Shown here one piece after another: positions 3,124-34,280 of a stretch of 52,738 nt of DNA. Origin of the DNA: a virus; IMG/VR virus record IMGVR_UViG_3300047550_006202, positions 1 to 52,738 of that record. One strand, written 5' to 3'. A program made the position numbers and the translations under genes. Under the pieces are notes generated by a model, which was not told the DNA's origin, searched no databases, and saw only the letters and a program-made list of their open reading frames with translations. Numbering within the stretch: the stretch's first letter is position 1; every line of letters starts with the position of its first letter.

Positions 3124-4446
3124 CTATCCACGGTATTCAGGATCACATCCCGAGTTGTAATCCGGGAATACGCCTGTACTAGTTAGATCGTTAACTGTAA
3201 ATATCTTGTATTGTTGTAAGTATTCCGGGTCTCCGCTTATATTATTACCCGTTACTCTATAATAGTGTTGACCGTCGGTAATTATCTCTCCTCCAACGAC
3301 ATTTCCGCCACCAAAACTATTGGCTGTTCTAAAAGGAATTGCACCTGTGACTTTCAATACACCGGCGTATTTTGTATACGGCGTAGTTCCTATGAAATAC
3401 CTTTCGTCGCCGCACTGCACTAACGCATAGTAATCGAATCCTGGAACGTTGGAAAGATACGTACTGTATCTAGTTGAACCAAGATACGTTTTGTCTACCG
3501 AATAAACCCAGTTTGGTCTATACCCGCCGATGTCTCTGACGTACAAATACGGGAAATCGTAAGTCGACGGGTTCGCTGAATACGTGCTATACCACGAATA
3601 ATCATCTTGGTCGTTGGTCATTCCAGGAATAGGTGCCTTGAATAGAAACTCTCCGTTTGATATGTATCCCAATCTGTTGTATCCAATTATGTTGGATTGA
3701 GTCATGCTCGCTACTTCCTCTATGCTGTTTCCCCCGATCAAATACATCGGTTTGTTTATCAAGAATGTACTTACTGTAGGGGTAGGGGTAGGAGTTGGGC
3801 TTCTAGTAACAGAAGGAGTTATCGTTGGAGTTCTAGAGATAGTGACTGTTATTGTCGGTGTAACTGGATTCGGTGTCATTGTCACCGTAGGGGTCACTGA
3901 TATGGTGGGAGTCACGCTTATTGTTTCAGTGGGTGTAGGAGTTAAACTCACTGTAGGGGTGACGCTTATTGTCGGACTAACTGTGACAGTTATGCTTGGA
4001 GTCTTAGAAGGAGTTCTTGAAACGGATACAGTTGGGGTAGTAGTAACCTCGGGAGTTCTACTTATTGATATGGTAGGCGTGAAAGTGACAGTGGGAGTCA
4101 CCGTGATGGTACTGCTAGGCGTTATGGTTACGGTAGGAGTTACCGTTATGGTAACGCTTATAGTAGGTGTTACAGGAGGATAACCAACCAAATAAGCGTC
4201 CGTCCAACTTACGCAGTCCGTACACTCCGTCTTTATTCTGACTATGGTGGTTCCGAATGGGACTATGTGGCTAGTGTATCCCGCTTCCAATTCTGCACGA
4301 CTCACACACTTCTGAAAAGGTTCTTTGAAATCGTCAGCGTCCGTATAGAGGTCGAAAGGCCCTCTCGGTCCTCTCGCGTCTCCAACGTAATCACCGAACG
4401 AAGCGACTATTTTTACTGAGTAGTTTGTGAATACTGAGAATGGCAT
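3124..4446 (-). CDS. Tail-fibre-like protein with Thr/Pro stalk (440 aa)
   Basis: Three parts are visible. Residues 1 to about 85 form a small domain with the pattern FDLYTDADDF, ...AGYTSHIVPFGTTIVRIKTECTDC, shared with the next two fibre genes. Residues about 90-225 are a Thr/Pro/Ser/Val stalk built of TPT(I/V)SV-type units. Residues about 226-440 are a Tyr- and Gly-rich beta domain (YLIGGNSIEE..., GGEIITDGQHYYRV) that may be the receptor-binding end. No enzyme motif is seen. It is the last of four consecutive stalk-bearing genes. The role in host attachment is inferred from architecture and from its place after the baseplate genes. Confidence 0.7.
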   Translation of the reverse strand: MPFSVFTNYSVKIVASFGDYVGDARGPRGPFDLYTDADDFKEPFQKCVSRAELEAGYTSHIVPFGTTIVRIKTECTDCVSWTDAYLVGYPPVTPTISVTITVTPTVTITPSSTITVTPTVTFTPTISISRTPEVTTTPTVSVSRTPSKTPSITVTVSPTISVTPTVSLTPTPTETISVTPTISVTPTVTMTPNPVTPTITVTISRTPTITPSVTRSPTPTPTPTVSTFLINKPMYLIGGNSIEEVASMTQSNIIGYNRLGYISNGEFLFKAPIPGMTNDQDDYSWYSTYSANPSTYDFPYLYVRDIGGYRPNWVYSVDKTYLGSTRYSTYLSNVPGFDYYALVQCGDERYFIGTTPYTKYAGVLKVTGAIPFRTANSFGGGNVVGGEIITDGQHYYRVTGNNISGDPEYLQQYKIFTVNDLTSTGVFPDYNSGCDPEYRG

Positions 4447-4459
4447 ATCTTTCTATTTT

Positions 4460-5404
4460 TTAGCAACACGTTCCACTATAAGTATTGGAGAACGTAATTG
4501 TCACGTCAGTGTCTCCGTAAGCTATTTGACTTATGTTATCAGTCACCTTCAATCTATATACAGCTGATCTAACACCTGGAGGAGTGGGATCACAATCTAC
4601 ACTAAGAATTGTTTGGAATCTTGTGCTATTGTTCGTAAACTGCAAAGGTTCTATATTTGTATCTCCGCTTACATATTCCCAAAGATACGTATAAGGTGCG
4701 TATCCGCCCGCAGCTGTTCCAGTAACGGCCTGCGTATCCGCGGGTGTACACGTACTACACAGACTACAACTGCTTGATCTAGACGATGCATCCATAGTTA
4801 GAGTGAGAGGCGGAGCAGTCGTTTGGCTAGGTGTTACTGATATCGTCTTTGTAGGAGTTATTGATATAGTAGGAGTTTGACTTATTGATATAGTCGGTGT
4901 CACAGATATAGTTTTAGTCACCGTAATAGTCGGAGTAACTGTGATTGTGGGAGTTATTGATATGCTGGGAGTAACAGATATTGTTTTAGTGAATGTGACG
5001 CTTATGGTAGGAGTTACGGAAATCGTTGGAGTTTGTGTCAACGAGATCGTAGGCGTAACGCTTATAGACGCTGTCCTACTTATAGTAGGAGTAGCTGTAA
5101 TGGATATCGTAGGAGTTATGCTCTTAGTAACTGTTATAGTAGGCGTAGGAGTCGCAGTAGGTGTCGGACTGGGTTGTACCACGTAAATGTTTGCGCAGTT
5201 TCTACAAGTTCCTTTGGAACACACCCTCAAACTGTTCGTGCCAGAGGGAACGAAGTTCAAAGTGTAACCAGAAAGGAGCTGATTCTTAGTAACGTCTGTA
5301 GCAAGAGGCGTACAAAATCCATCGAAATCCGTATAGATATCGAAGTAGTTACCGGTATCAGCTCCGGCGGTTGTGATCGTTATTAGTACGGATACTGTTG
5401 ACAT
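4460..5404 (-). CDS. Tail-fibre-like protein with Thr/Pro stalk and Ig/PKD-like tip (314 aa)
   Basis: Residues 1 to about 75 match the N-terminal module of its neighbours (FDIYTDFDGFCTPL, ...SGYTLNFVPSGTNSLRVC, then CxxC). Residues about 77-203 are TPTIS(V/I)-type repeats. Residues about 204-314 start with a Cys-rich segment (CSLCSTC) and continue as an Ig/PKD-like fold (GGYAPYTYLWEYVSGD, YRLKVTDNISQIAYGD). PKD-like folds are common in bacterial surface adhesins and phage fibres. The last residues are CC. A palindromic GTATTTATAAATAG lies just before the ATG. A virion fibre role is inferred. Confidence 0.7.
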   Translation of the reverse strand: MSTVSVLITITTAGADTGNYFDIYTDFDGFCTPLATDVTKNQLLSGYTLNFVPSGTNSLRVCSKGTCRNCANIYVVQPSPTPTATPTPTITVTKSITPTISITATPTISRTASISVTPTISLTQTPTISVTPTISVTFTKTISVTPSISITPTITVTPTITVTKTISVTPTISISQTPTISITPTKTISVTPSQTTAPPLTLTMDASSRSSSCSLCSTCTPADTQAVTGTAAGGYAPYTYLWEYVSGDTNIEPLQFTNNSTRFQTILSVDCDPTPPGVRSAVYRLKVTDNISQIAYGDTDVTITFSNTYSGTCC

Positions 5405-5409
5405 CTATT

Positions 5410-5418
5410 TATAAATAC
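5410..5418 (-). promoter_or_regulatory. GTATTTATA motif upstream of 5404
   Basis: On the coding strand GTATTTATAAATAG directly precedes the ATG. It contains the motif in both orientations as a short palindrome. The gap from GTATTTATA to ATG is 5 nt. Confidence 0.4.
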
Positions 5419-5443
5419 GTAATTTTTCATTTCAAAACTATAA

Positions 5444-8400
5444 TTAAATTTTTATACAAGCATTGGCGTTACAGTCTGCCACGTTATACACGGTTCCTAT
5501 GTTCGCTGGTGAAGTCGTTGTAGTGGTGCTAGTTATAGTGTAACATTCTAAACTGTTGTTAGGTACTCCAGTTGGATCAGAGAGCGTGTATACGCCTCCA
5601 ACGGTTAAGGAACTATCTGTTATCCATGTTGATGTTGTACCGTCGCTACATTTTGATACATCATAAGAGTTTCTAAATGGAAGCGTTCTCGTCGGAGATT
5701 TAGTGGGAGTTAACGTAGGAGTTCTTGTGAAAGTGATGGTAGGAGTGGGCGTCACACTTATAGTAGGAGTCACTGTAATGCTTATTGTCGGCGTGACACT
5801 TATTGTAAGCGTTTTAGTTAAACTTATTGTTGGCGTAACGCTTATAGATGCAGTCCTACTTATAGTAGGTGTAACTGTAATCGATATCGTAGGAGTAGCA
5901 GTGATACTTATCGTAGGAGTTTTAGTTATAGACGGGGTTGGAGTTGGAGGTATGTTACAACCCGTGCTTATAACAACAGTTACAGTGGTCTGGCCTATTA
6001 CGAATGTGCTTCCGTTGACGTAAGAACTTCCGTTAACTGTGACTTGATTTACCTTCGAGTAACCGTAAGAGGTTCCCACAGAACAGCCTGTTCCCACAGT
6101 ATCTCCGTTTACAAACTTAGCTCCGCTTTGTCCAGGCGTCCATACAATTCCGCCCCCTGCTCCCTGACCGGCTTGTGTATTGTCTCCGCCTAAGCAATTA
6201 CAGATATCAGTATCTGTTCCTCCAACCCAAACTGTTGCGTAAGATCCTGATACACTTATTTGTTCGCTAAGGGGATCAGACAGCGTCCACGTAAATCTTC
6301 CAGTGCCTCTGTTATAAGAAGTGTATGTTAAAGTAGCGTTATCCACATAATCAGACGTACTCGGTGTGACGGTGACAGTGATAGTGGGAGTAAGCGTAGG
6401 TGTTACACTTATTGTTGGAGTGAGCGTAGGAGTTCTAGTCGGTGTAGGAGTAGGAGCCAATACGCAGGCTGTGTTAATAGAAACTGTTACAGTCGACTGT
6501 CCATCTTGGGTTACCCAACTCTGACCGTTTGATTTCACGTCTCCAGTGGTTGATCCGTGATTTATGGTCATAGAATTATCCTTTGAATGAGCGTAAAGAT
6601 CGCTTATTCCAAGACCCACTGCGCTCTTTGTACCGGCCTCTCCAGATAACCACGTTACGGTAGATAGTATGTAAGATCCGCCTGCTGCGTTAACGCAACT
6701 ATTATCGCTGTAGCTAGTAATAGATGCGAAAGTTATCGTGATATCTTCCCCTACAGCTGAGCTGAGGTTGAAGTAGAACGTATCGTTTAGATTATTGAAA
6801 GACGCAAACGATAGTACTGCGTCCGTCGCGAAATCCGTAGGAGACGGTGTTGGACTTATAGATATTGTAGGAGTTACGGTTTGAGTCAGACTTATAGTTT
6901 TTGTAGGCGTTATACTAATGGTCGGAGTGACACTTATTGTCGGCGTTAAGCTTATCGTAGGAGTTAAGCTTATTGTTTGAGTTAAACTAATAGTAGGGGT
7001 TACTGAGATAGTAGGCGTTAGACTCTTGGTTTGAGTCAAACTTATTGTCGGGGTCAAACTCATCGTCTGAGTGAGACTTATGGTAGGTGTCAAACTTATT
7101 GTCGGGGTCAAACTCATGGTAGGTGTCAAACTCATAGTCTGAGTGAGACTTATGGTAGGTGTCAAACTCACTGTTTGAGTTAGACTTATTGTCGGAGTTT
7201 GAGTTATGCTTATCGTTGGAGTTAAACTAATAGTCTGTGTTACGCTAATCGTAGGCGTTACGCTAATTGTGGGAGTGAGACTGATTGTGACGCTTATCGT
7301 AGGTGTGACACTTATCGTAGGTGTGACGCTTATGGATTTAGTAACACTTATAGTTGGCGTTACAGTAATAGTAGGCGTCAAACTAACTGTAGGCGTCAAA
7401 CTAATTGTTTGAGTTAAGCTTATCGTAGGAGTCAAGCTTATTGTGGGAGTAAGACTTATAGTCTGAGTTACGCTAATCGTAGGAGTAGCGGTTATGCTTA
7501 TAGTTTTAGTAGGAGTGATGCTTATAGTAGGAGTAACTGTGATCGTTGGAGTCAAACTAACTGTAGGCGTCAAACTTATAGTCTTTGTGACGCTTATAGT
7601 AGGAGTTACGCTAATCGTAGGAGTAACAGTGATTGTCGCTGTGACAGTTATGGTTGGCGTTAAACTCTTTGTAGGAGTTTGACTTATCGTAGACGTTACG
7701 CTTATGGTTGGAGTAGCTGTGAGGCTTATTGTCGGAGTGAGACTCTTTGTGGGAGTCAAGCTTATGGTTGGAGTTACGCTTATAGTCGGCGTTACACTTA
7801 TAGTAGGAGTGACGCTGATTGTGGCAGTAACAGTTATAGTGGGAGTCAAGCTCTTTGTCGGCGTTACACTTATAGTGGCCGTTACCGATATCGTAGGAGT
7901 TCCTGTAATGCTGATGGTCGGAGTAACAGTAATAGTGGGCGTAACGCTGATTGTCTGTGTTAAGCTTATTGTAGGGGTCAAACTCTTTGTCGGTGTTAAG
8001 CTTATTGTAGGAGTTATGCTTATAGAAGCAGTTACACTTATACCGGGAGTTACGCTTATGCTTTGAGTCAGACTTATGGTCGGTGTTAAGCTTATTGTAG
8101 GAGTTAAGCTTACAGTTTTTGTTACGGTTATCGTAGGAGTGACTGTGATAGTAGGCGTCAAGCTCTTTGTGGGAGTTTGACTTATCGTTGGACTAACGCT
8201 TATAGTTGGCGTTTGAGATATCGTTGGAGTAACTGATATCGTCGAGGTGACAGTTATGGTCGGAGTTACTGTTATAGTCGGGGTGCTAGTTAACCCAGGA
8301 GTGCTGCTTATTGTAGCTGTTACGCTTATTGTCTGTGTTACACTAATTGTGGGAGTTGCTGTAACTGTGGGAGTTTGAGTGGGAGTTACAGATATCGTAG

Positions 8401-8884
8401 GTGTGTTCGTTACGGTCGGAGTTACAGATATGGTCTCTGTAACGGTGATTGTGGGAGTAGCCGTTATAGAAACCGTTGGAGTGGATGTTACACTTATAGT
8501 AGGAGTAGAAGTTATTGTGATTGTTGGGGTTTTTGTAGCAGTTAAACTAACAGTGGGAGTGTTCGTTATAGTGGGAGTGATACTGATCGTAGGCGTCTTT
8601 GTTATTGACACAGTTGGGGTGTACGAAGGCGTTGTTCCAACGAATCTAGTTACAATGTCTATGTAATTCGTACAACCGTCGCAGTGAGCAGCAACGCGCA
8701 AAATACCCGTGTTAGCGGGAACTTTATTGAACCTATAACCATCTATGAGAAGTTGTCTGGGAATCTTTCTATAGATCGGATATTTAAATCCATCCCAGTC
8801 GCTGAATATATCGCAGTACTCAGAGTCTATCCCTATTCCTGAGAATGATACTGTTACCGATATATATTTTATTTCGTTTCTCAT
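5444..8884 (-). CDS. Very long Thr/Pro-repeat tail-fibre-like protein (1146 aa)
   Basis: Residues 1 to about 80 are the shared N-terminal module (CDIFSDWDGFKYPI, ...DGYRFNKVPANTGILRVAAHCDGC). Residues about 88-683 are an almost unbroken run of about 100 six-residue units of the type TPTIS(V/L). Two related beta modules follow, at about 684-808 (AVLSFASFNNLNDTFYFNL) and about 842-975 (ATLTYTSYNRGTGRFTWTL), separated and followed by more repeats. The C-terminus (about 1066-1146) is a Cys-containing domain (YDVSKCSDGTTSTW, ...ECYTIT). The repeat units use varied synonymous codons, so the frame is under protein-level selection. It is probably an extended fibre; adhesion to the host is inference. 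It is followed by related fibre genes in the same direction. Confidence 0.75.
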   Translation of the reverse strand: MRNEIKYISVTVSFSGIGIDSEYCDIFSDWDGFKYPIYRKIPRQLLIDGYRFNKVPANTGILRVAAHCDGCTNYIDIVTRFVGTTPSYTPTVSITKTPTISITPTITNTPTVSLTATKTPTITITSTPTISVTSTPTVSITATPTITVTETISVTPTVTNTPTISVTPTQTPTVTATPTISVTQTISVTATISSTPGLTSTPTITVTPTITVTSTISVTPTISQTPTISVSPTISQTPTKSLTPTITVTPTITVTKTVSLTPTISLTPTISLTQSISVTPGISVTASISITPTISLTPTKSLTPTISLTQTISVTPTITVTPTISITGTPTISVTATISVTPTKSLTPTITVTATISVTPTISVTPTISVTPTISLTPTKSLTPTISLTATPTISVTSTISQTPTKSLTPTITVTATITVTPTISVTPTISVTKTISLTPTVSLTPTITVTPTISITPTKTISITATPTISVTQTISLTPTISLTPTISLTQTISLTPTVSLTPTITVTPTISVTKSISVTPTISVTPTISVTISLTPTISVTPTISVTQTISLTPTISITQTPTISLTQTVSLTPTISLTQTMSLTPTMSLTPTISLTPTISLTQTMSLTPTISLTQTKSLTPTISVTPTISLTQTISLTPTISLTPTISVTPTISITPTKTISLTQTVTPTISISPTPSPTDFATDAVLSFASFNNLNDTFYFNLSSAVGEDITITFASITSYSDNSCVNAAGGSYILSTVTWLSGEAGTKSAVGLGISDLYAHSKDNSMTINHGSTTGDVKSNGQSWVTQDGQSTVTVSINTACVLAPTPTPTRTPTLTPTISVTPTLTPTITVTVTPSTSDYVDNATLTYTSYNRGTGRFTWTLSDPLSEQISVSGSYATVWVGGTDTDICNCLGGDNTQAGQGAGGGIVWTPGQSGAKFVNGDTVGTGCSVGTSYGYSKVNQVTVNGSSYVNGSTFVIGQTTVTVVISTGCNIPPTPTPSITKTPTISITATPTISITVTPTISRTASISVTPTISLTKTLTISVTPTISITVTPTISVTPTPTITFTRTPTLTPTKSPTRTLPFRNSYDVSKCSDGTTSTWITDSSLTVGGVYTLSDPTGVPNNSLECYTITSTTTTTSPANIGTVYNVADCNANACIKI
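6840..8625 (-). repeat. Tandem 18-bp (six-residue) coding repeat, TPTIS(V/L) stalk
   Basis: About 1.8 kb of near-continuous 18-bp periodicity, read on the minus strand as Thr-Pro-Thr-Ile-Ser-Val/Leu with variants (Ala, Lys, Gln or Gly replacing Pro or its neighbours). Third-codon positions vary from unit to unit, so this is an old, diverged repeat and not a recent perfect expansion. Shorter tracts of the same type lie at about 3770-4180, 4800-5180, 5700-5960 and 9425-9765. Confidence 0.9.
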
Positions 8885-8893
8885 TTATTTATA
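8885..8893 (-). promoter_or_regulatory. TATAAATAA motif abutting the 8884 start
   Basis: On the coding strand the sequence GGGGTATAAATAAATG places a TATAAATA box, the classical T4 late-promoter form, directly against the ATG. This is the opposite orientation to the ATATTTATA motifs elsewhere. It may be chance in AT-rich DNA. Confidence 0.25.
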
Positions 8894-10700
8894 CCCCACA
8901 AGCTGTTGAGGATGTTTGTTGAACGAATCCGCTGATGTTGGCCACGCTTCCGGCTTTAGCACAGAAAGTCTGTTGCGGGTATATGGTGCTATTGGTCACT
9001 TGGATACCGCTACAGTTCGTATAATTTACAATCGCGTTTCCACTAAAGCTAGTGTTTTTGTATTCCGCGCAGTGGAGTTTTGTTTTATAATACACTGTGA
9101 AATTACCGTTTACGCCTGTCCAAGTATAACTAGAAACACCTGTACCGACTGATGCGTAATAGGTACTAGAATTATAAATTATGTAAGCAGACGATATCAA
9201 ACAACCTACTTGAACCTGTAGATATACATCTGCGTTTATCGTTGCTCCGGTTGGAGTTTGCCCGTATTCGTAACAGGTCAAAGGGGAACCAGCGCAATTG
9301 TTCATCGGATGATTATCGTTGAACAAAGTGATGTACCCTGATCCAGCGGAACCTGCGTTGTTCTTTATTCTCAGAGTCACAAACTTATCCGCTGATGGAG
9401 TGGAACTATTATCTCTTCCTAAGGCCCATCGATTATTTGGCGTAACTGTGATACTCGGTGTACTTGTGGGTGTTAGACTTATCGTAACGGTGGGAGTGAT
9501 CGATATGCTTATAGTAGGAGTCATCGATATGGTATTAGTTACAGTTGGCGTAATTGTGGCCGAAGGTGTCTGAGTCAGGAACGGTGTTAGTGTGGGCGTA
9601 GGAGTTTGAGTGATTGGAGGGGTCTCTGTTGGTGTTACGCTCACTGTCGGTGTTACGCTTATGGTAGCGGTTACGTTCGGAGTTTTTGTGGGAGTTCTAG
9701 TGACGCTCGCAGTCGGGGTGACGGTGGGAGTATTTGATATTGTGACCGTTATCGACGGAGTTACGGCTGGCACCACTCTAGCGTTTCCAGCCAATGCGCA
9801 ATCGTTATAATACGCAGATCCCGTTATCCTACAATCGTTTACAATCGCTATGGGATTTTCAAAACTTTCCTCTATGTAATCGTTTACTGTTATCTTACAA
9901 AGCGCTGGATCGCTCTTTAAACCGCATCCAGGACCGTAATAATTGCTTACGCTATAGTAAGTAGAGTATTCTCCTGGATCTATGGCGTTGAGCGTAACTA
10001 GACCCGTCGATTTGTTAACTTGGAAGAGGTGTGATTGCTCTGTTCCAAAAACTTGCAATGTGTTATAATCGAATTCTCCTGATCCTGCGTAATCGTTGCT
10101 AGTTACGTAGAACGTTTTTGGTGATGTGAGTTCTGAGAATTCGTTACTGTAACCCTTTAATATGGGTCTTTCAGGGAAAATATCTTGATAGTCTTGGTGT
10201 GTTAGTACAACTACACCGTGAGAGTACATTATGTTTCCAACGTGAAGATTATCGTTAGCAGAGTCTACTATATTTCCGTTTCCGTCGTCAGATAAAAAAG
10301 CTCCGTTATCAGAGTAAACGAAGGTGTTTGGGGATATTTTTTCTCCGAACACTGTTCTTGGAATGGACATCACCGATATCCTTGAATTAGATTCGGTTGG
10401 AAAATATCTATTCTCGTATTCGTAAGTGCCTGATGCCGCTGTAGATTGTTGGTAGGAATCCCACGCGCTTCCAGAACCCAATATGGATCCTGAGATGTGG
10501 TTCATGTAGTAAAGTTGGCGTATCGTTCTGTAAACTAGTATCTGATAGTTAACAGATCCCGATACGCTTACTTGACCGTTTACGCCCTTAGTATACTCAA
10601 TGTTTTTTTCTCCTCCACAACTAAGTTGTTGGGAATACTTGAGTTGTATCGGAATGCTTGATATGTCCGAACTTTGTATTGTATTCCTGCATAGACTCAT
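8889..10700 (-). CDS. Tail-fibre/baseplate-attached protein with Thr/Pro stalk (603 aa)
   Basis: Residues 1 to about 310 form a non-repetitive domain unlike the other three fibre proteins (ISSIPIQLKYSQQLS, TESNSRISVMSIPR, DDGNGNIVDSANDNLHVGNIMY, HGVVVLTHQDY). Patterns such as DDGNGN...VGNI.Y.HG recur, from memory, in tail proteins of other distant T4-like phages and may mark a baseplate-binding part. Residues about 313-425 are the Thr/Pro stalk. Residues about 426-603 are a Cys- and Asn-rich beta domain (CAGSPLTCYEY, NTSFSGNAIVNYTNC). The gene starts 3 nt after the stop of the upstream structural gene, so it lies in the baseplate operon and may be the first fibre segment. Confidence 0.7.
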   Translation of the reverse strand: MSLCRNTIQSSDISSIPIQLKYSQQLSCGGEKNIEYTKGVNGQVSVSGSVNYQILVYRTIRQLYYMNHISGSILGSGSAWDSYQQSTAASGTYEYENRYFPTESNSRISVMSIPRTVFGEKISPNTFVYSDNGAFLSDDGNGNIVDSANDNLHVGNIMYSHGVVVLTHQDYQDIFPERPILKGYSNEFSELTSPKTFYVTSNDYAGSGEFDYNTLQVFGTEQSHLFQVNKSTGLVTLNAIDPGEYSTYYSVSNYYGPGCGLKSDPALCKITVNDYIEESFENPIAIVNDCRITGSAYYNDCALAGNARVVPAVTPSITVTISNTPTVTPTASVTRTPTKTPNVTATISVTPTVSVTPTETPPITQTPTPTLTPFLTQTPSATITPTVTNTISMTPTISISITPTVTISLTPTSTPSITVTPNNRWALGRDNSSTPSADKFVTLRIKNNAGSAGSGYITLFNDNHPMNNCAGSPLTCYEYGQTPTGATINADVYLQVQVGCLISSAYIIYNSSTYYASVGTGVSSYTWTGVNGNFTVYYKTKLHCAEYKNTSFSGNAIVNYTNCSGIQVTNSTIYPQQTFCAKAGSVANISGFVQQTSSTACGV

Positions 10701-28423: not shown

Positions 28424-29395
28424 ATGGGAACACCTAGAGCTGAAATAACGAATCCTGAAATACAGAAGCTGGTGTTGGGATTACTCGAATCTCAATTGGG
28501 TAAAGGTAAGCCCGATAAGTTGGGTAACTACACGTTTTATTGTCCTGTATGCAAGCACAAAAAACCCAAGCTTGTAATTAACATCAAGTCAGGCGTTTAC
28601 AACTGTTGGACGTGTCACCCTCCCACCAAGGGAAGAAATCCAGTATCTCTGTTTAAAAAACTTTCAGTCCCCGGAAAAGTAATTTCGGAGATGAAGCAGT
28701 ACTTTGGAATGAAGACTACAAAGGAAGACATAGAATCTCAACCTATTGTGGCAGAATTACCCAAAGAATATGTTCCTATAACATTTTCTAAAACTGATCT
28801 GTACGAAAAGAAAGTTGTCTCATATTTAAAATTAAGGGGATTATCGGAGAGCGACATACTAAAGTACCAAATAGGATACTGTGTAAACGGTCGTTACAGG
28901 GATCGAGTGATCATCCCGTCGTTCGATTCCCAGGGAAAATTAAATTATTTTGTGGCAAGATCTATAGACCCAAACAAAAAACCCGCTTACGACGCGCCTA
29001 GCGTAAAGAAGACTGATATCATTGGTTTCGAATACTACGTTAATTTTAATGTGCCTGTAGTCCTTTGTGAGGGTGTGTTCGATGCTATGGCTATAAAAAG
29101 GAACGCCATTCCACTGTTTGGTAAGACAATTCCTAAAGCACTCATGATGAAACTTGTACAATCTCAAGTAAAAACTATATATTTAGCGTTGGATAAAGAC
29201 GCATTAAAAGAAAGTTATGCTTACGCAGAGGAATTGATAAATATGGGTAAGGAAGTTTATTTTTTAGATATGGACGATAAAGACCCGTCTATTCTTGGAT
29301 TCTCTAAAATGGTAGAAAAACTGCAACAAGCTAAACCCATGAAAACAGAGGATCTATTTTTTAAGAAGATGGAATTGATATTGGCAACTGCATGA
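28424..29395 (+). CDS. 61: DNA primase, T4 gp61-like (323 aa)
   Basis: An N-terminal zinc finger uses Cys40, Cys43, Cys61 and Cys64 (CPVC...CWTC). A Toprim-type catalytic core follows, with EGVFDA (Glu216, Asp220) and LALDKDA (Asp257, Asp259). Length and order match T4 gp61 (342 residues), the primase that makes pentaribonucleotide primers with helicase gp41. The ATG follows AATAAATATGT without a Shine-Dalgarno sequence. The stop overlaps the start of the gp47-gp46 fusion by 4 nt (ATGA), so the two are translationally coupled. Confidence 0.85.
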   Translation: MGTPRAEITNPEIQKLVLGLLESQLGKGKPDKLGNYTFYCPVCKHKKPKLVINIKSGVYNCWTCHPPTKGRNPVSLFKKLSVPGKVISEMKQYFGMKTTKEDIESQPIVAELPKEYVPITFSKTDLYEKKVVSYLKLRGLSESDILKYQIGYCVNGRYRDRVIIPSFDSQGKLNYFVARSIDPNKKPAYDAPSVKKTDIIGFEYYVNFNVPVVLCEGVFDAMAIKRNAIPLFGKTIPKALMMKLVQSQVKTIYLALDKDALKESYAYAEELINMGKEVYFLDMDDKDPSILGFSKMVEKLQQAKPMKTEDLFFKKMELILATA

Positions 29396-32300
29396 ATGAA
29401 ATAGTAAAGTCTAAGTTACATCTATCTAAGATAGATAAAATACACCACGTATCCGACGTACACATTAGGAATTACAAGCGACACACAGAATATAATCGCG
29501 TGTTCAATAGGTTGTACAATAGGATAAAAGCAAATCTAACTAAGAACGATCTTATAGTTCTCACCGGTGATATAGTACATTCTAAAACGGACGTCACGCC
29601 CGAACTATTCAATGAGGTTCAAAAGTTCCTGAACGGTCTGTGTGACATTGCACCGGTGCTCATGATACCTGGAAATCACGACACGAACCTCAATAACTCC
29701 CACAGACTCGACGCGTTGACTCCGATAGTAAATGCTATGGCGTCATCTAAGCTAGAGTACTATAAAGATTCCGCCATAATTCGCTTAGGTAATGTGGATT
29801 TTTACCACTGGTCTGTCATGGACGATGAACAGGACTATCCATCTGTTATGGAAAATTCCCAAGTAAACATCGCGCTATATCACGGTCCCGTAAACAATTG
29901 TACGACTGAAGCGGGGTTCGTCATAGAGAACGAGAGCATGACTGTGGAAAAATTCCGAGGCTTTGATATGGTCCTTTTGGGCGACATACACAAAACGCAA
30001 TTTCTAAACCCACAAAAAACAGTTGCATATCCAGGATCCTTAATACAACAGAACCACGGAGAAGAACGCAAGCACGGTTATTTGCTGTGGGAAGTAGAAA
30101 GCAGGTTCGTAGAGTTCGTTGAAGTAGAAAACGATACAGCGTTTTACACTATAGACGTCGATGCGGGTTTGCATAAACCCATAGACGAAACGCTTCCAGA
30201 GAATTTGTACCTTCGCGTAAGATACAAGAACACCGATCAAGCAACTCTGCGCGATATAGTAGATAGCTTGAGAAAACAGAAGAACATTGTTGAACTCACA
30301 ACGCAAAGAATAAGTACTTTTACGTCTAGTGAAAAGACACTCGATGCATCTAAAACTTTGGACTTTAGATCAATCGAACAACAAAAGAAACTTCTGACGG
30401 ATTTTCTCAAACAGAAGCACGATTTGAAACAAGAGGAGCTTGATAGAGTTCTTGAGATCAACGAACAGGTCAACAAATCTTTGAAGAAAAGCGAGGTACC
30501 AAGGAACTCTATGTGGATCCCTAAGCGCTTCGAGTTCGAGAACATGTTCAGCTACGGAAAGAACAATTTCGTCGATTTTACGAACATGAAAGGCACTTTT
30601 GGGCTTTTTGCGCCTAACGCTAGCGGAAAATCTACGTTGCTCGATTCTCTGACGTATTGCATATTCGATAAGTGTACCAAGACGAACCGTGGTCACCAAG
30701 TCATGAACTCAAGTAGCAATACTTTTTACTGTAAATTGAATTTTGAGCTGAACGGGCTAGATTATTTTATAGAGAGAAACGCTAAGCGCCAAAATTCTGG
30801 AAACGTTAGGGTAGAGGTCGATTTCTACTATGTGGACGAAGAAGGAAACAAGATTTCTCTAAACGGAAAAGACCGATCGGACACTAACAATAGCATAAAA
30901 AACTTATTGGGCAACTACGAGGATTTTGTTTTAACTACGCTATCCACACAGAGCAACAACACTGGGTTCATAGATATGAATCAGAAGGACCGCAAGGATC
31001 TATTGAGTCAATTTATGGATATAGGTGTCTTTGAAGAGCTGTACAATATAGCTAACGAGACAGCGAGGGAAAATGCCGCTGTGCTTAAACACTTCCAGAA
31101 AACTGATTACGAATCAAAACTCTGCGAGATAGAGCGCAATTTAGAACAATACAACAAAGATCTAAAGAAACAAAACTTAGAAAAGATCCACGCAGATTCA
31201 GAAAAGTCCGCTTTGACTGATAAGTTAGAGAAACTTATAAAACAACTTGAGTATGTCGACACTTCTATAATAGACGAAAAGGCAATAAGCAATAGTATAG
31301 TATCTTCGAAGAGCGAATTAATAGATCTTAATAAGGCAAAACATATACTCACTAACGAATTACACGCTCTTGCTATAGAGATAGATGAGTTACATTTTAG
31401 AGTTGATTCTGTGGATGAAAAATATCTAAAGAAACAATTAGAGGAATGTAAACAACTCGTAACTGAATTCAATAATGTTAACGTAGAAAAACAAAAGCTA
31501 TCAGAGCACATCTCCCATAAATTGGATAAAATGGGAAAATTGAAAGAGTTGGAATACGATCCAAACTGTAAGTATTGTATGGGTAACGTATTTGTGAAGG
31601 ACGCTATAACAGCCAAAGAACAGATAGCAGCAGATAGAGAAAAGCTTCAAGTATTAGAAAATAAACACAAGGAACTTGCTTCTAGTGTAAAAAAGTGTGC
31701 ATTGATCGAGCAATCTCGAGATTCTTACGAAGAAGTCAAAAGAATCTTAATGACCCTTAAGAATAAGTCTTCTGAATTGTCGTTGAAACTTGAAAGAGTC
31801 ATCAATAAAATAAAATCAGAGGAGGATTCAATAAAATTGGGCGAAGAGAAACTGCAACTTAGAAAAAAACAGCTCTCTTCCATTAAGAAAAACGAAATAA
31901 CAAATAAAAAGATAGAGGACACCAAGCGCGATATTAAAGTGCTTGATGCGGAAATAAAGCTATTGAATGCATCTCTATCAGATCTAAACGCGCAGATAAA
32001 GATAACTGAGAAGAGCATAGAGGATTTAAGAACTGAGATTGATAAGCGTAAAGGCCTTGAAACCTCACATCAGCTCTATCAATACTATTTGGAAGCTACT
32101 CATAGGGACGGAATACCCCACGAAGTTATATCTGTAACAATACCTCAAATAGAAGAGGAAGTGAACAACATCCTATCTCAATTGGTAGACTTTAGGATAG
32201 TATTTGAAACTGACGATAAGAACGTCAATGCCTACATAGCCTACAGCGAAGAGCGTTTTTGGCCTTTAGAGCTTACCTCCGGGATGGAAAAATTCGTCTC

Positions 32301-32550
32301 GTCCCTAGCAATTCGTACAGCGCTCATCAATATATCCACCCTTCCCAGGCCCAATTTTATTGCGATAGATGAGGGATTTGGATCATTGGACAAATCTAAC
32401 CTTGGATCCATGTCGCTGCTCTTCGATTACCTAAAGACCCAATTCAAATTCATAGTCATAATATCCCACATTGACTCTATGCGTGACGTGGTAGATTCCT
32501 ACATAGAAATCCACAAAGTAAAAGACAGATCATTAGTGAACCACGAGTAG
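29392..32550 (+). CDS. 47-46: Fused Mre11-Rad50-type exonuclease (gp47-gp46 single chain, 1052 aa)
   Basis: Residues 1 to about 260 are the Mre11/SbcD/gp47 phosphoesterase: SDVH (Asp22, His24), TGD (Asp60), GNHD (Asn95-Asp97), YHG (His164) and LGDIH (Asp198, His200). Residues about 375-1052 are Rad50/SbcC/gp46: Walker A APNASGKST (Lys413), long coiled coils, a CKYC zinc hook (Cys726, Cys729), LTSGME signature (about 961-966), Walker B IAIDEGF (Asp993, Glu994) and ISHID. In T4 the two are separate genes whose complex resects DNA ends for recombination-dependent replication. All key residues are present in both halves, so the fusion is probably active. Confidence 0.88.
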   Translation: MNEIVKSKLHLSKIDKIHHVSDVHIRNYKRHTEYNRVFNRLYNRIKANLTKNDLIVLTGDIVHSKTDVTPELFNEVQKFLNGLCDIAPVLMIPGNHDTNLNNSHRLDALTPIVNAMASSKLEYYKDSAIIRLGNVDFYHWSVMDDEQDYPSVMENSQVNIALYHGPVNNCTTEAGFVIENESMTVEKFRGFDMVLLGDIHKTQFLNPQKTVAYPGSLIQQNHGEERKHGYLLWEVESRFVEFVEVENDTAFYTIDVDAGLHKPIDETLPENLYLRVRYKNTDQATLRDIVDSLRKQKNIVELTTQRISTFTSSEKTLDASKTLDFRSIEQQKKLLTDFLKQKHDLKQEELDRVLEINEQVNKSLKKSEVPRNSMWIPKRFEFENMFSYGKNNFVDFTNMKGTFGLFAPNASGKSTLLDSLTYCIFDKCTKTNRGHQVMNSSSNTFYCKLNFELNGLDYFIERNAKRQNSGNVRVEVDFYYVDEEGNKISLNGKDRSDTNNSIKNLLGNYEDFVLTTLSTQSNNTGFIDMNQKDRKDLLSQFMDIGVFEELYNIANETARENAAVLKHFQKTDYESKLCEIERNLEQYNKDLKKQNLEKIHADSEKSALTDKLEKLIKQLEYVDTSIIDEKAISNSIVSSKSELIDLNKAKHILTNELHALAIEIDELHFRVDSVDEKYLKKQLEECKQLVTEFNNVNVEKQKLSEHISHKLDKMGKLKELEYDPNCKYCMGNVFVKDAITAKEQIAADREKLQVLENKHKELASSVKKCALIEQSRDSYEEVKRILMTLKNKSSELSLKLERVINKIKSEEDSIKLGEEKLQLRKKQLSSIKKNEITNKKIEDTKRDIKVLDAEIKLLNASLSDLNAQIKITEKSIEDLRTEIDKRKGLETSHQLYQYYLEATHRDGIPHEVISVTIPQIEEEVNNILSQLVDFRIVFETDDKNVNAYIAYSEERFWPLELTSGMEKFVSSLAIRTALINISTLPRPNFIAIDEGFGSLDKSNLGSMSLLFDYLKTQFKFIVIISHIDSMRDVVDSYIEIHKVKDRSLVNHE

Positions 32551-32564: not shown

Positions 32565-34280
32565 ATGAAGACGACTGTTTTACTCCCCGGAGGATTTAAA
32601 CCTCCCCATGTGGGACACCTACAACTCGCAAACGCTTACGCCGCTGATCCCAGTGTTGAAAAAGTGGTGGTGCTTGTTGGTCCATCTGAGAGAGACGGAA
32701 TAGGCAGAGATCAATCTTTGGCAGTTTGGAAACTTCTTCCCACTCACCCTAAAGTGAAAGTCGTTGCATCCGATATAGACAATCCGATGGAAGCCGCGTT
32801 CGAAACAGTATTGAACTTGGATAAATCAGCCACCGGTCAGTACGCTATGGGAGCTAGTTCAAAGGGATCTGATGCTCAAAGATCTAAGGTCTTTGTTGAC
32901 TATCTAAGAAAACACAAAACAGTTCCAACTCCTAGAGACAAAAAGATGACGCCTAAAGGCGTAAATCCAATTTTACTTCCAATAGATACTAGACCTCTAT
33001 TATATAAAGGTCGTAACGATGGATTAAACGGAACTGGAATAAGTGCAAGTGTGCTTAGAAAAGATCTCAAATCAGGAGACATAAAGAACTTCGCCACAAA
33101 CTATCCAGGAGTTCCTCAAAAAATTATTCAAGACATTTTCGATATACTCTCAAAAAAAAAGCTAAAAACTCCTACTAAAAAGTTAAGAGAGTTCGCTAAC
33201 ATTTTAGAGGGCGTAGCCGTATTTAGAACAGCCATAAGGCAATTGCTTACAGAGGGTGGAGCAGCTGGACACATGGCCCACCCATTTGATATCCCTACGG
33301 TGAAAAACGGATCTGATCTCATCAAAGTTTTTAAAGAAACTGAGACTTATCTCAAGAACAACGAAGTTCCTCTAAAAATAGACGGCATAAATTCTTCCAT
33401 TAGGCTTGTAAACACCGATAGTGGTAAAGAATTTGCGTTGGACCGTGGGTCTAACAAACCGCTTGACGTGAAGGGTGTAACAACTAAAGACTTAAAGAAC
33501 AGGTTCGAAAAGGGCCATGGAATGATAAAGATCGGTGGCACCGTTCTTAAGATATTCAACGAGGCATTACCGTCTGCTAAATCTGCGTTGAGCAAATTAG
33601 GACTCATGAAGAATCCTAACATCATGCTCAACATAGAATACGTAGAAGGAAAGTCTAACGTACAGAAGTACGAAAAGAACTTCATAGTGATACACAACTT
33701 GCTTGAAGTGAAACAATCAAAAGAGGGAAAGAGATCTATAGGCGAAATGTCTTATTCTAAAAACGATCTTCAAGCTTTAGTAGATGCTTTGAAACCGGTA
33801 GCTAAGAAATACGGATTCGAAGTATTTAACATGATACCCGCAAAAATGGAAAAAGGTTCTAACATAGCAACTGAATTGAGTAAATCGTACACGATTAACT
33901 ACGCCAAAGGTAAGAAAGAAACTAAAAGTTTGGATCAGTGGCTAAAGGATGCAAAGAATACTAAAGGTCAGAAACTGAAACTGAAAGACGGCAAAACTGT
34001 CGATGCGTTGAGCAAACAGGTTTTTATGGCGATAAACGGAGGTCAAAGCGTTCAAGACATGATCGCGGATCCAAAAGATATCAAAATTGCTGTAGACTCT
34101 TTCGTCATATACTTAGCTACAGAAAAATTAGGGGAAGCGATACTCAAATCCATGAGTTCTCCCCTTGGAAACGTTAACGATCAAGAGGGTATAGTGGTTA
34201 GAAACCCAAAAGTTTACGATAAACCCTATAAGATCACTGGATCTTTCATAACTAGGGGAATGCAATCACAATTCCGATAA
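32565..34280 (+). CDS. HxGH nucleotidyltransferase fused to a ligase-like nucleotidyltransferase (571 aa)
   Basis: Residues 1 to about 200 are a cytidylyltransferase/NMN-adenylyltransferase-type domain: GGFKPPHVGH (HxGH) and GTGISASVLRKDL (the ISSTxxR-like motif). Residues about 231-571 look like a DNA/RNA-ligase-type covalent nucleotidyltransferase: PLKIDGINSS (motif I, Lys271), LNIEYVEG (motif III-like), EGIVVR (motif IV, Glu541) and KPYKITGSF (motif V-like). A junction RQLLTE-GGAAGH lies at 227-231. The first domain would move a nucleotide to a phosphorylated substrate, and the second could seal or adenylylate nucleic acid. The ligase call is by motif only; an oligoadenylate or capping role cannot be excluded. 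Confidence 0.65.
   Translation: MKTTVLLPGGFKPPHVGHLQLANAYAADPSVEKVVVLVGPSERDGIGRDQSLAVWKLLPTHPKVKVVASDIDNPMEAAFETVLNLDKSATGQYAMGASSKGSDAQRSKVFVDYLRKHKTVPTPRDKKMTPKGVNPILLPIDTRPLLYKGRNDGLNGTGISASVLRKDLKSGDIKNFATNYPGVPQKIIQDIFDILSKKKLKTPTKKLREFANILEGVAVFRTAIRQLLTEGGAAGHMAHPFDIPTVKNGSDLIKVFKETETYLKNNEVPLKIDGINSSIRLVNTDSGKEFALDRGSNKPLDVKGVTTKDLKNRFEKGHGMIKIGGTVLKIFNEALPSAKSALSKLGLMKNPNIMLNIEYVEGKSNVQKYEKNFIVIHNLLEVKQSKEGKRSIGEMSYSKNDLQALVDALKPVAKKYGFEVFNMIPAKMEKGSNIATELSKSYTINYAKGKKETKSLDQWLKDAKNTKGQKLKLKDGKTVDALSKQVFMAINGGQSVQDMIADPKDIKIAVDSFVIYLATEKLGEAILKSMSSPLGNVNDQEGIVVRNPKVYDKPYKITGSFITRGMQSQFR

Follow-up and report, generated by a model that had tools for sequence, protein, structure and literature searches.

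The window, that is, the whole stretch of DNA analysed, was 52,738 nt of the virus record IMGVR_UViG_3300047550_006202 (IMG/VR). Features of the locus are given below, with the evidence for each in brackets.

28424..29395, + strand: DNA primase, 323 aa, directly upstream of the fusion gene (PHROG 47, 4e-45)
29392..32550, + strand: Mre11-Rad50 (SbcD-SbcC) fusion protein, 1052 aa (Pfam, PHROGs, single frame in relatives)
29434..30111, + strand: Mre11-like phosphoesterase domain, motifs I-V, residues about 15-240 (Pfam Metallophos, conservation, structure match)
30112..30372, + strand: Mre11 capping (DNA-recognition) domain and variable loop, residues 241-327 (structure alignment, predicted secondary structure)
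30373..30474, + strand: Mre11 helix-loop-helix, expected Rad50-binding element, residues 328-361 (predicted helices, pLDDT about 90)
30475..30510, + strand: linker of 12 residues from the helix-loop-helix to the first Rad50 strand, residues 362-373 (model, alignment)
30511..31026, + strand: Rad50 N-terminal ATPase lobe with Walker A (APNASGKS) and Q-loop, residues 374-545 (Pfam AAA_23, structure match)
31027..31548, + strand: Rad50 ascending coiled coil, residues 546-719 (predicted helices)
31549..31590, + strand: zinc hook apex, C726-K-Y-C729, residues 720-733 (both Cys invariant, 50/50)
31591..32100, + strand: Rad50 descending coiled coil, residues 734-903 (predicted helices)
32101..32547, + strand: Rad50 C-terminal ATPase lobe with SGME signature, Walker B, D-loop and H-switch, residues 904-1052 (invariant residues)

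The fusion open reading frame starts with ATG and runs for 1052 codons with no internal stop, and the Mre11 domain precedes the Rad50 domain within one reading frame, as in R555-type fusions. Its start codon is overlapped by the primase stop codon (ATGA, 29392-29395). A preliminary description made from the letters alone had proposed a single chain with the nuclease N-terminal, coupled to the primase by this ATGA, and the uninterrupted frame and the overlap were both confirmed. Pfam Metallophos matched residues 16-201 (2.2e-13) and AAA_23 residues 382-620 (1.1e-13), each above its gathering cut-off, so that a profile search, as proposed there, finds both domains. PHROGs gave phrog_100 (SbcD-like, 2.8e-35) and phrog_77 (SbcC-like, 2.2e-54), and a PDB sequence search agreed with the Mre11/SbcD and Rad50/SbcC assignment. 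The Mre11/SbcD nuclease in total, including the capping domain and the helix-loop-helix, occupies residues about 15-361.

The motifs were found, and are conserved in 50 aligned relatives. The phosphoesterase motifs are D22-x-H24, G59-D60, G94-N95-H96-D97, H164 and G197-D198-I199-H200; position 24 is His in 48 of the 50 fused proteins and Gln in the other two. Motif V is GDIH in all 50, with Asp replacing the first His of GHxH. Asp was found here in every fused protein sampled and His in every separate phage and E. coli protein sampled, a split that follows the tree and so is no independent evidence. Conserved Rad50 motifs are GKS414, Q520, S963-G-M-E966, D993-E994, D1000 and H1026. The Walker A motif, A407-PNAS-GKS414, has Ala in place of the first Gly. 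The Cys pair (50/50) and the predicted flanking helices indicate an antiparallel coiled coil with a CxxC zinc hook. Five phosphoesterase motifs and two halves complete by motif had been claimed, and all of these elements, hook included, were found, but motif V reads GDIH rather than GHxH and Walker A begins with Ala. Because of these two departures, activity identical to that of the standard enzyme should not be assumed.

The chain was modelled with AlphaFold2 (mean pLDDT 78, pTM 0.49, at which relative domain placement is unreliable). The nuclease and capping part aligned to SbcD/Mre11 structures with Z of about 22-25 and rmsd of about 3-4 Å, and for model residues 15-307 the alignment to the nuclease plus capping region in S. 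aureus SbcD (7dog_B) had a Z of 25.5. The ATPase part aligned to Rad50 structures with Z of about 19-23, with large rmsd in some. Foldseek matches to Lamassu and other SMC-like defence ATPases were disfavoured, the nuclease being Mre11 and the locus a phage replication region. Helices were predicted at residues 328-342 and 347-361 and the first Rad50 strand at 374-383, leaving a gap of 12 residues. In the T. maritima complex, about 28 Å separate the Mre11 C terminus from the Rad50 N terminus, a distance bridgeable by 9-12 residues (PMC3175470). By the same criterion the predicted structure, with capping and helix-loop-helix regions kept and a 12-residue linker, is compatible with the two-protein complex. 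The nuclease is N-terminal to the ATPase on the same chain, as had been noted, but the limit on geometry drawn from this is mild, because the linker can cover the distance that separates helix-loop-helix and Rad50 N terminus in the two-protein complex.

A tblastn search of isolate and other public phage records gave four that cover 80% or more of the query, namely Microcystis phage Mel-JY01 (41%), LR756508 (36%) and a 735-kb genome that is present twice (25%). A first scan of IMG/VR gave 60 loci; in a second, at least 595 stretches encode a relative, and 80 of the 595 confirmed stretches were kept. Three further relatives come from contigs assigned to prokaryotic MAGs and may be viral or host. 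A tree built from the concatenated domains unites the 20 fused proteins (94/99), and the fusion of the 735-kb phage attaches to them (100/98); the separate-gene pairs of T4-like phages and Herelleviridae lie outside this clade. Likeness to giant-virus fusions of R555 type was judged outside the tree, by structure match in BFVD, where the best viral matches are giant-virus 'DNA repair exonuclease' proteins of about 1200-1400 aa (20-25% identity). Contrary to the gp47-gp46 label given earlier, the protein does not group with the T4 pair: the fused clade stands apart from T4-like pairs, and among viral structure matches the best are of R555 type. The fusion of Xanthomonas phage phiXF1 (L004, 4043-6898; Metallophos and SMC/Rad50, 951 aa, annotated hypothetical) groups weakly with separate-gene proteins on a long branch and is possibly an independent fusion event.

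That the single chain might be an assembly or sequencing artefact joining two neighbouring genes was considered, since such artefacts do occur. Listeria phage LMTA-57 (L151, AID17555.1) is annotated with an SbcD-SbcC fusion and is in BFVD as a fusion, and its DNA is 97% identical to that of the two-gene phage LP-125, the single gap being one A missing from an A run at the junction; LMSP-25 and LMTA-34 are about 100% identical to LMTA-57 and carry two genes over one extra base. To judge from these alignments, the LMTA-57 fusion is probably a sequencing error. For the window gene we regard such an origin as exceedingly improbable. Of 115 near-full-length loci, 113 carry the fused gene as one frame (22-100% identity); they come from many independent metagenomes and the isolate Mel-JY01. 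This count says nothing on how frequent split versions are elsewhere, because loci were ranked for retention by their similarity to the fused query. The other two loci are broken, LR756508 by an endonuclease-like insertion and L104 by a single in-frame stop codon within the second coil. The junction evolves like coding sequence. The region 30150-30560, whose continuity was to be verified according to the preliminary description, is unbroken here and in relatives, with the N357-to-W375 spacing identical in 28 of 28 aligned proteins. Residues 349-465 have no indels in any relative, which is real but unexceptional (578 of 1028 windows of 24 residues are free of indels). Compared with the 97% relative L005 over residues 326-374 (helix-loop-helix and linker), the window has 14 synonymously and no nonsynonymously changed codons in the helix-loop-helix, and 5 and none in the linker, a pattern that indicates purifying selection across the junction. 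An assembly artefact was ruled out for the fused clade on the single frame in relatives and the synonymous-only divergence.

Two further readings of the protein were also weighed; that the window's own sub-clade gains free Rad50 and a complex other than 1:1 from an internal start, or that the invariant motif V Asp marks a distinct nuclease chemistry tied to the fusion, is on the whole unlikely. ATG374, which coincides with the beginning of the Rad50 domain, is preceded by an AAGGA-like site, AAGGAACTCT, at Shine-Dalgarno-like spacing (window 30501-30513), and could yield a free Rad50 half beside the full fusion. A start codon with such a site is also present in L005, L006, L007, L011, L068, L076, L028 and L029, but this makes only 9 of 125 loci, and the majority of the 125 have no start codon at this position, and the AGG derives from the Arg codon of a PRNSM motif without clear preference (7/17 against about 25% AGG usage). 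A conserved internal start was rejected on the 9/125 count, and use of M374 in the window and an altered nuclease are, in our judgement, both improbable. The latter would serve mainly to tether DNA ends, driven by ATP, and its nuclease chemistry would be weak or different. Its appeal lies in the invariance of GDIH against the GHxH of the separate proteins, and in the same replacement in R555, where motif V is reported to have changed from His to Asp (PMC3175470). However, the remaining metal ligands are all kept (apart from the two Gln at position 24), Asp is capable of ligating metal, and invariance across such divergence is not what one would expect of an inactive site.

Natural Mre11/Rad50 fusions were described in 2011 in Mimivirus (R555), plasmids, bacteria, eukaryotes and Bacillus phage 0305phi8-36 (PMC3175470; Yoshida, Claverie, Ogata), and R555-like genes, abundant in aquatic metagenomes and with primase genes among their scaffold neighbours, were argued to be viral and likely of phage (PMC3175470). 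PHROG profiles 77 and 100 already span both domains. A covalent fusion had been called unusual in the preliminary description, a view which these precedents contradict; nor, with at least 595 IMG/VR stretches, is it rare in aquatic phages. Within the library searched, no later paper devoted to phage Mre11/Rad50 fusions was found. The fusion is thus real, but of a kind already known, and the locus matches the points made in PMC3175470. Added here are a large phage clade, a constant primase neighbour, the invariant GDIH and a search that found no second pair. The R555-like fusion genes, already noted in 2011 to be abundant in aquatic metagenomes, are thereby clearly placed in phages, and Mel-JY01 is a sequenced phage that carries one.

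The window protein shares with R555 fusions the order Mre11 then Rad50 on one chain, the kept capping and helix-loop-helix regions, a linker matching 9-12 residues, the Asp of motif V and GDxxH at motif II, and with R555-type genes their aquatic abundance and nearby primase genes. At 1052 aa it is shorter than R555 (1351 aa, longer coil), which was compared by its published description. Mel-JY01 WWT39521.1 is likewise a full-length fusion (41% identity over 100% of the query) with a primase nearby upstream, but there a small extra ORF separates the two genes; it is annotated for one domain only ('AAA domain containing protein'). T4 gp47/gp46 and Herelleviridae SbcD/SbcC are the same pair of enzymes, encoded in this order within or close to the replication module, but they are two polypeptides with GHxH at motif V and lie outside the fused clade; the earlier statement that the T4 proteins are separate is correct, T4 having two genes. 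E. coli SbcD/SbcC have the same folds and domain order in the operon, but are two proteins, with GHxH, an LSGGE signature and an SbcC of 1048 aa with a long coil.

The window protein is very probably a single-chain Mre11-Rad50 (SbcDC) DNA-end-processing enzyme of R555 type, from an aquatic myovirus of about 180 kb. A mechanism can be suggested for this enzyme from the known two-protein complex. Two chains would pair through the Mre11 dimer interface and ATP-sandwiched Rad50 heads to give the usual two-plus-two head, the short linker allowing each helix-loop-helix to bind in cis, at the coil root of the same chain. ATP binding would close the heads and hide the nuclease, and hydrolysis at a DNA end or hairpin would open the nuclease for cutting; the zinc hooks may tether two DNA ends. 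Fusion would ensure 1:1 stoichiometry, and a compact single chain with fixed stoichiometry would be useful for structural work. T4 gp46/gp47 process ends for recombination-dependent replication. By analogy, the protein here likely prepares phage DNA ends, broken or terminal, for this kind of replication by ATP-gated processing.

The primase lies directly upstream of the fusion in 120 of 121 loci with room for it, and the four-base overlap seen in the window recurs in 57 of 122 loci. Such constancy points to joint expression of the end-processing and primer-synthesis functions in these phages. Both genes lie close to further replication genes, as is the case in Herelleviridae. Elsewhere the window codes for a large terminase, a portal, a head protease and baseplate wedge proteins, and one weak hit is to a tail sheath domain (gp18-like); by this gene set the phage is a myovirus. 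The 97% relative L005 resides on a 183-kb contig. Seven long records of related phages (not proven complete) were searched for a second Mre11/Rad50 pair and gave none; extra phrog_100 matches are short phosphoesterases (237-262 aa), and weak extra phrog_77 matches in Mel-JY01 cover part of the profile only. Searches for RNA structures and tRNAs gave none.

LR756508 (L002) is a 484-kb phage in which an ORF of 305 aa (4710-5624) breaks the fused gene directly behind motif V; this ORF has a TnsA-like endonuclease domain (Pfam, 5.8e-06) and is flanked on either side by extra coding sequence. The insertion is possibly a mobile endonuclease, an intron or a split gene; a search for a group I or II intron behind it gave zero Rfam matches. 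The gene following the fusion in the window (32565-34280) encodes 571 aa, of which the N terminus alone is cytidyltransferase-like (PHROG 395, 8e-4) and the remainder has no match; its relatives are present downstream in many loci at varying distance. At 3124-10700 (- strand), three neighbouring proteins of 440, 1146 and 603 aa have in common repeats of a single uncharacterised family, PHROG 15511.
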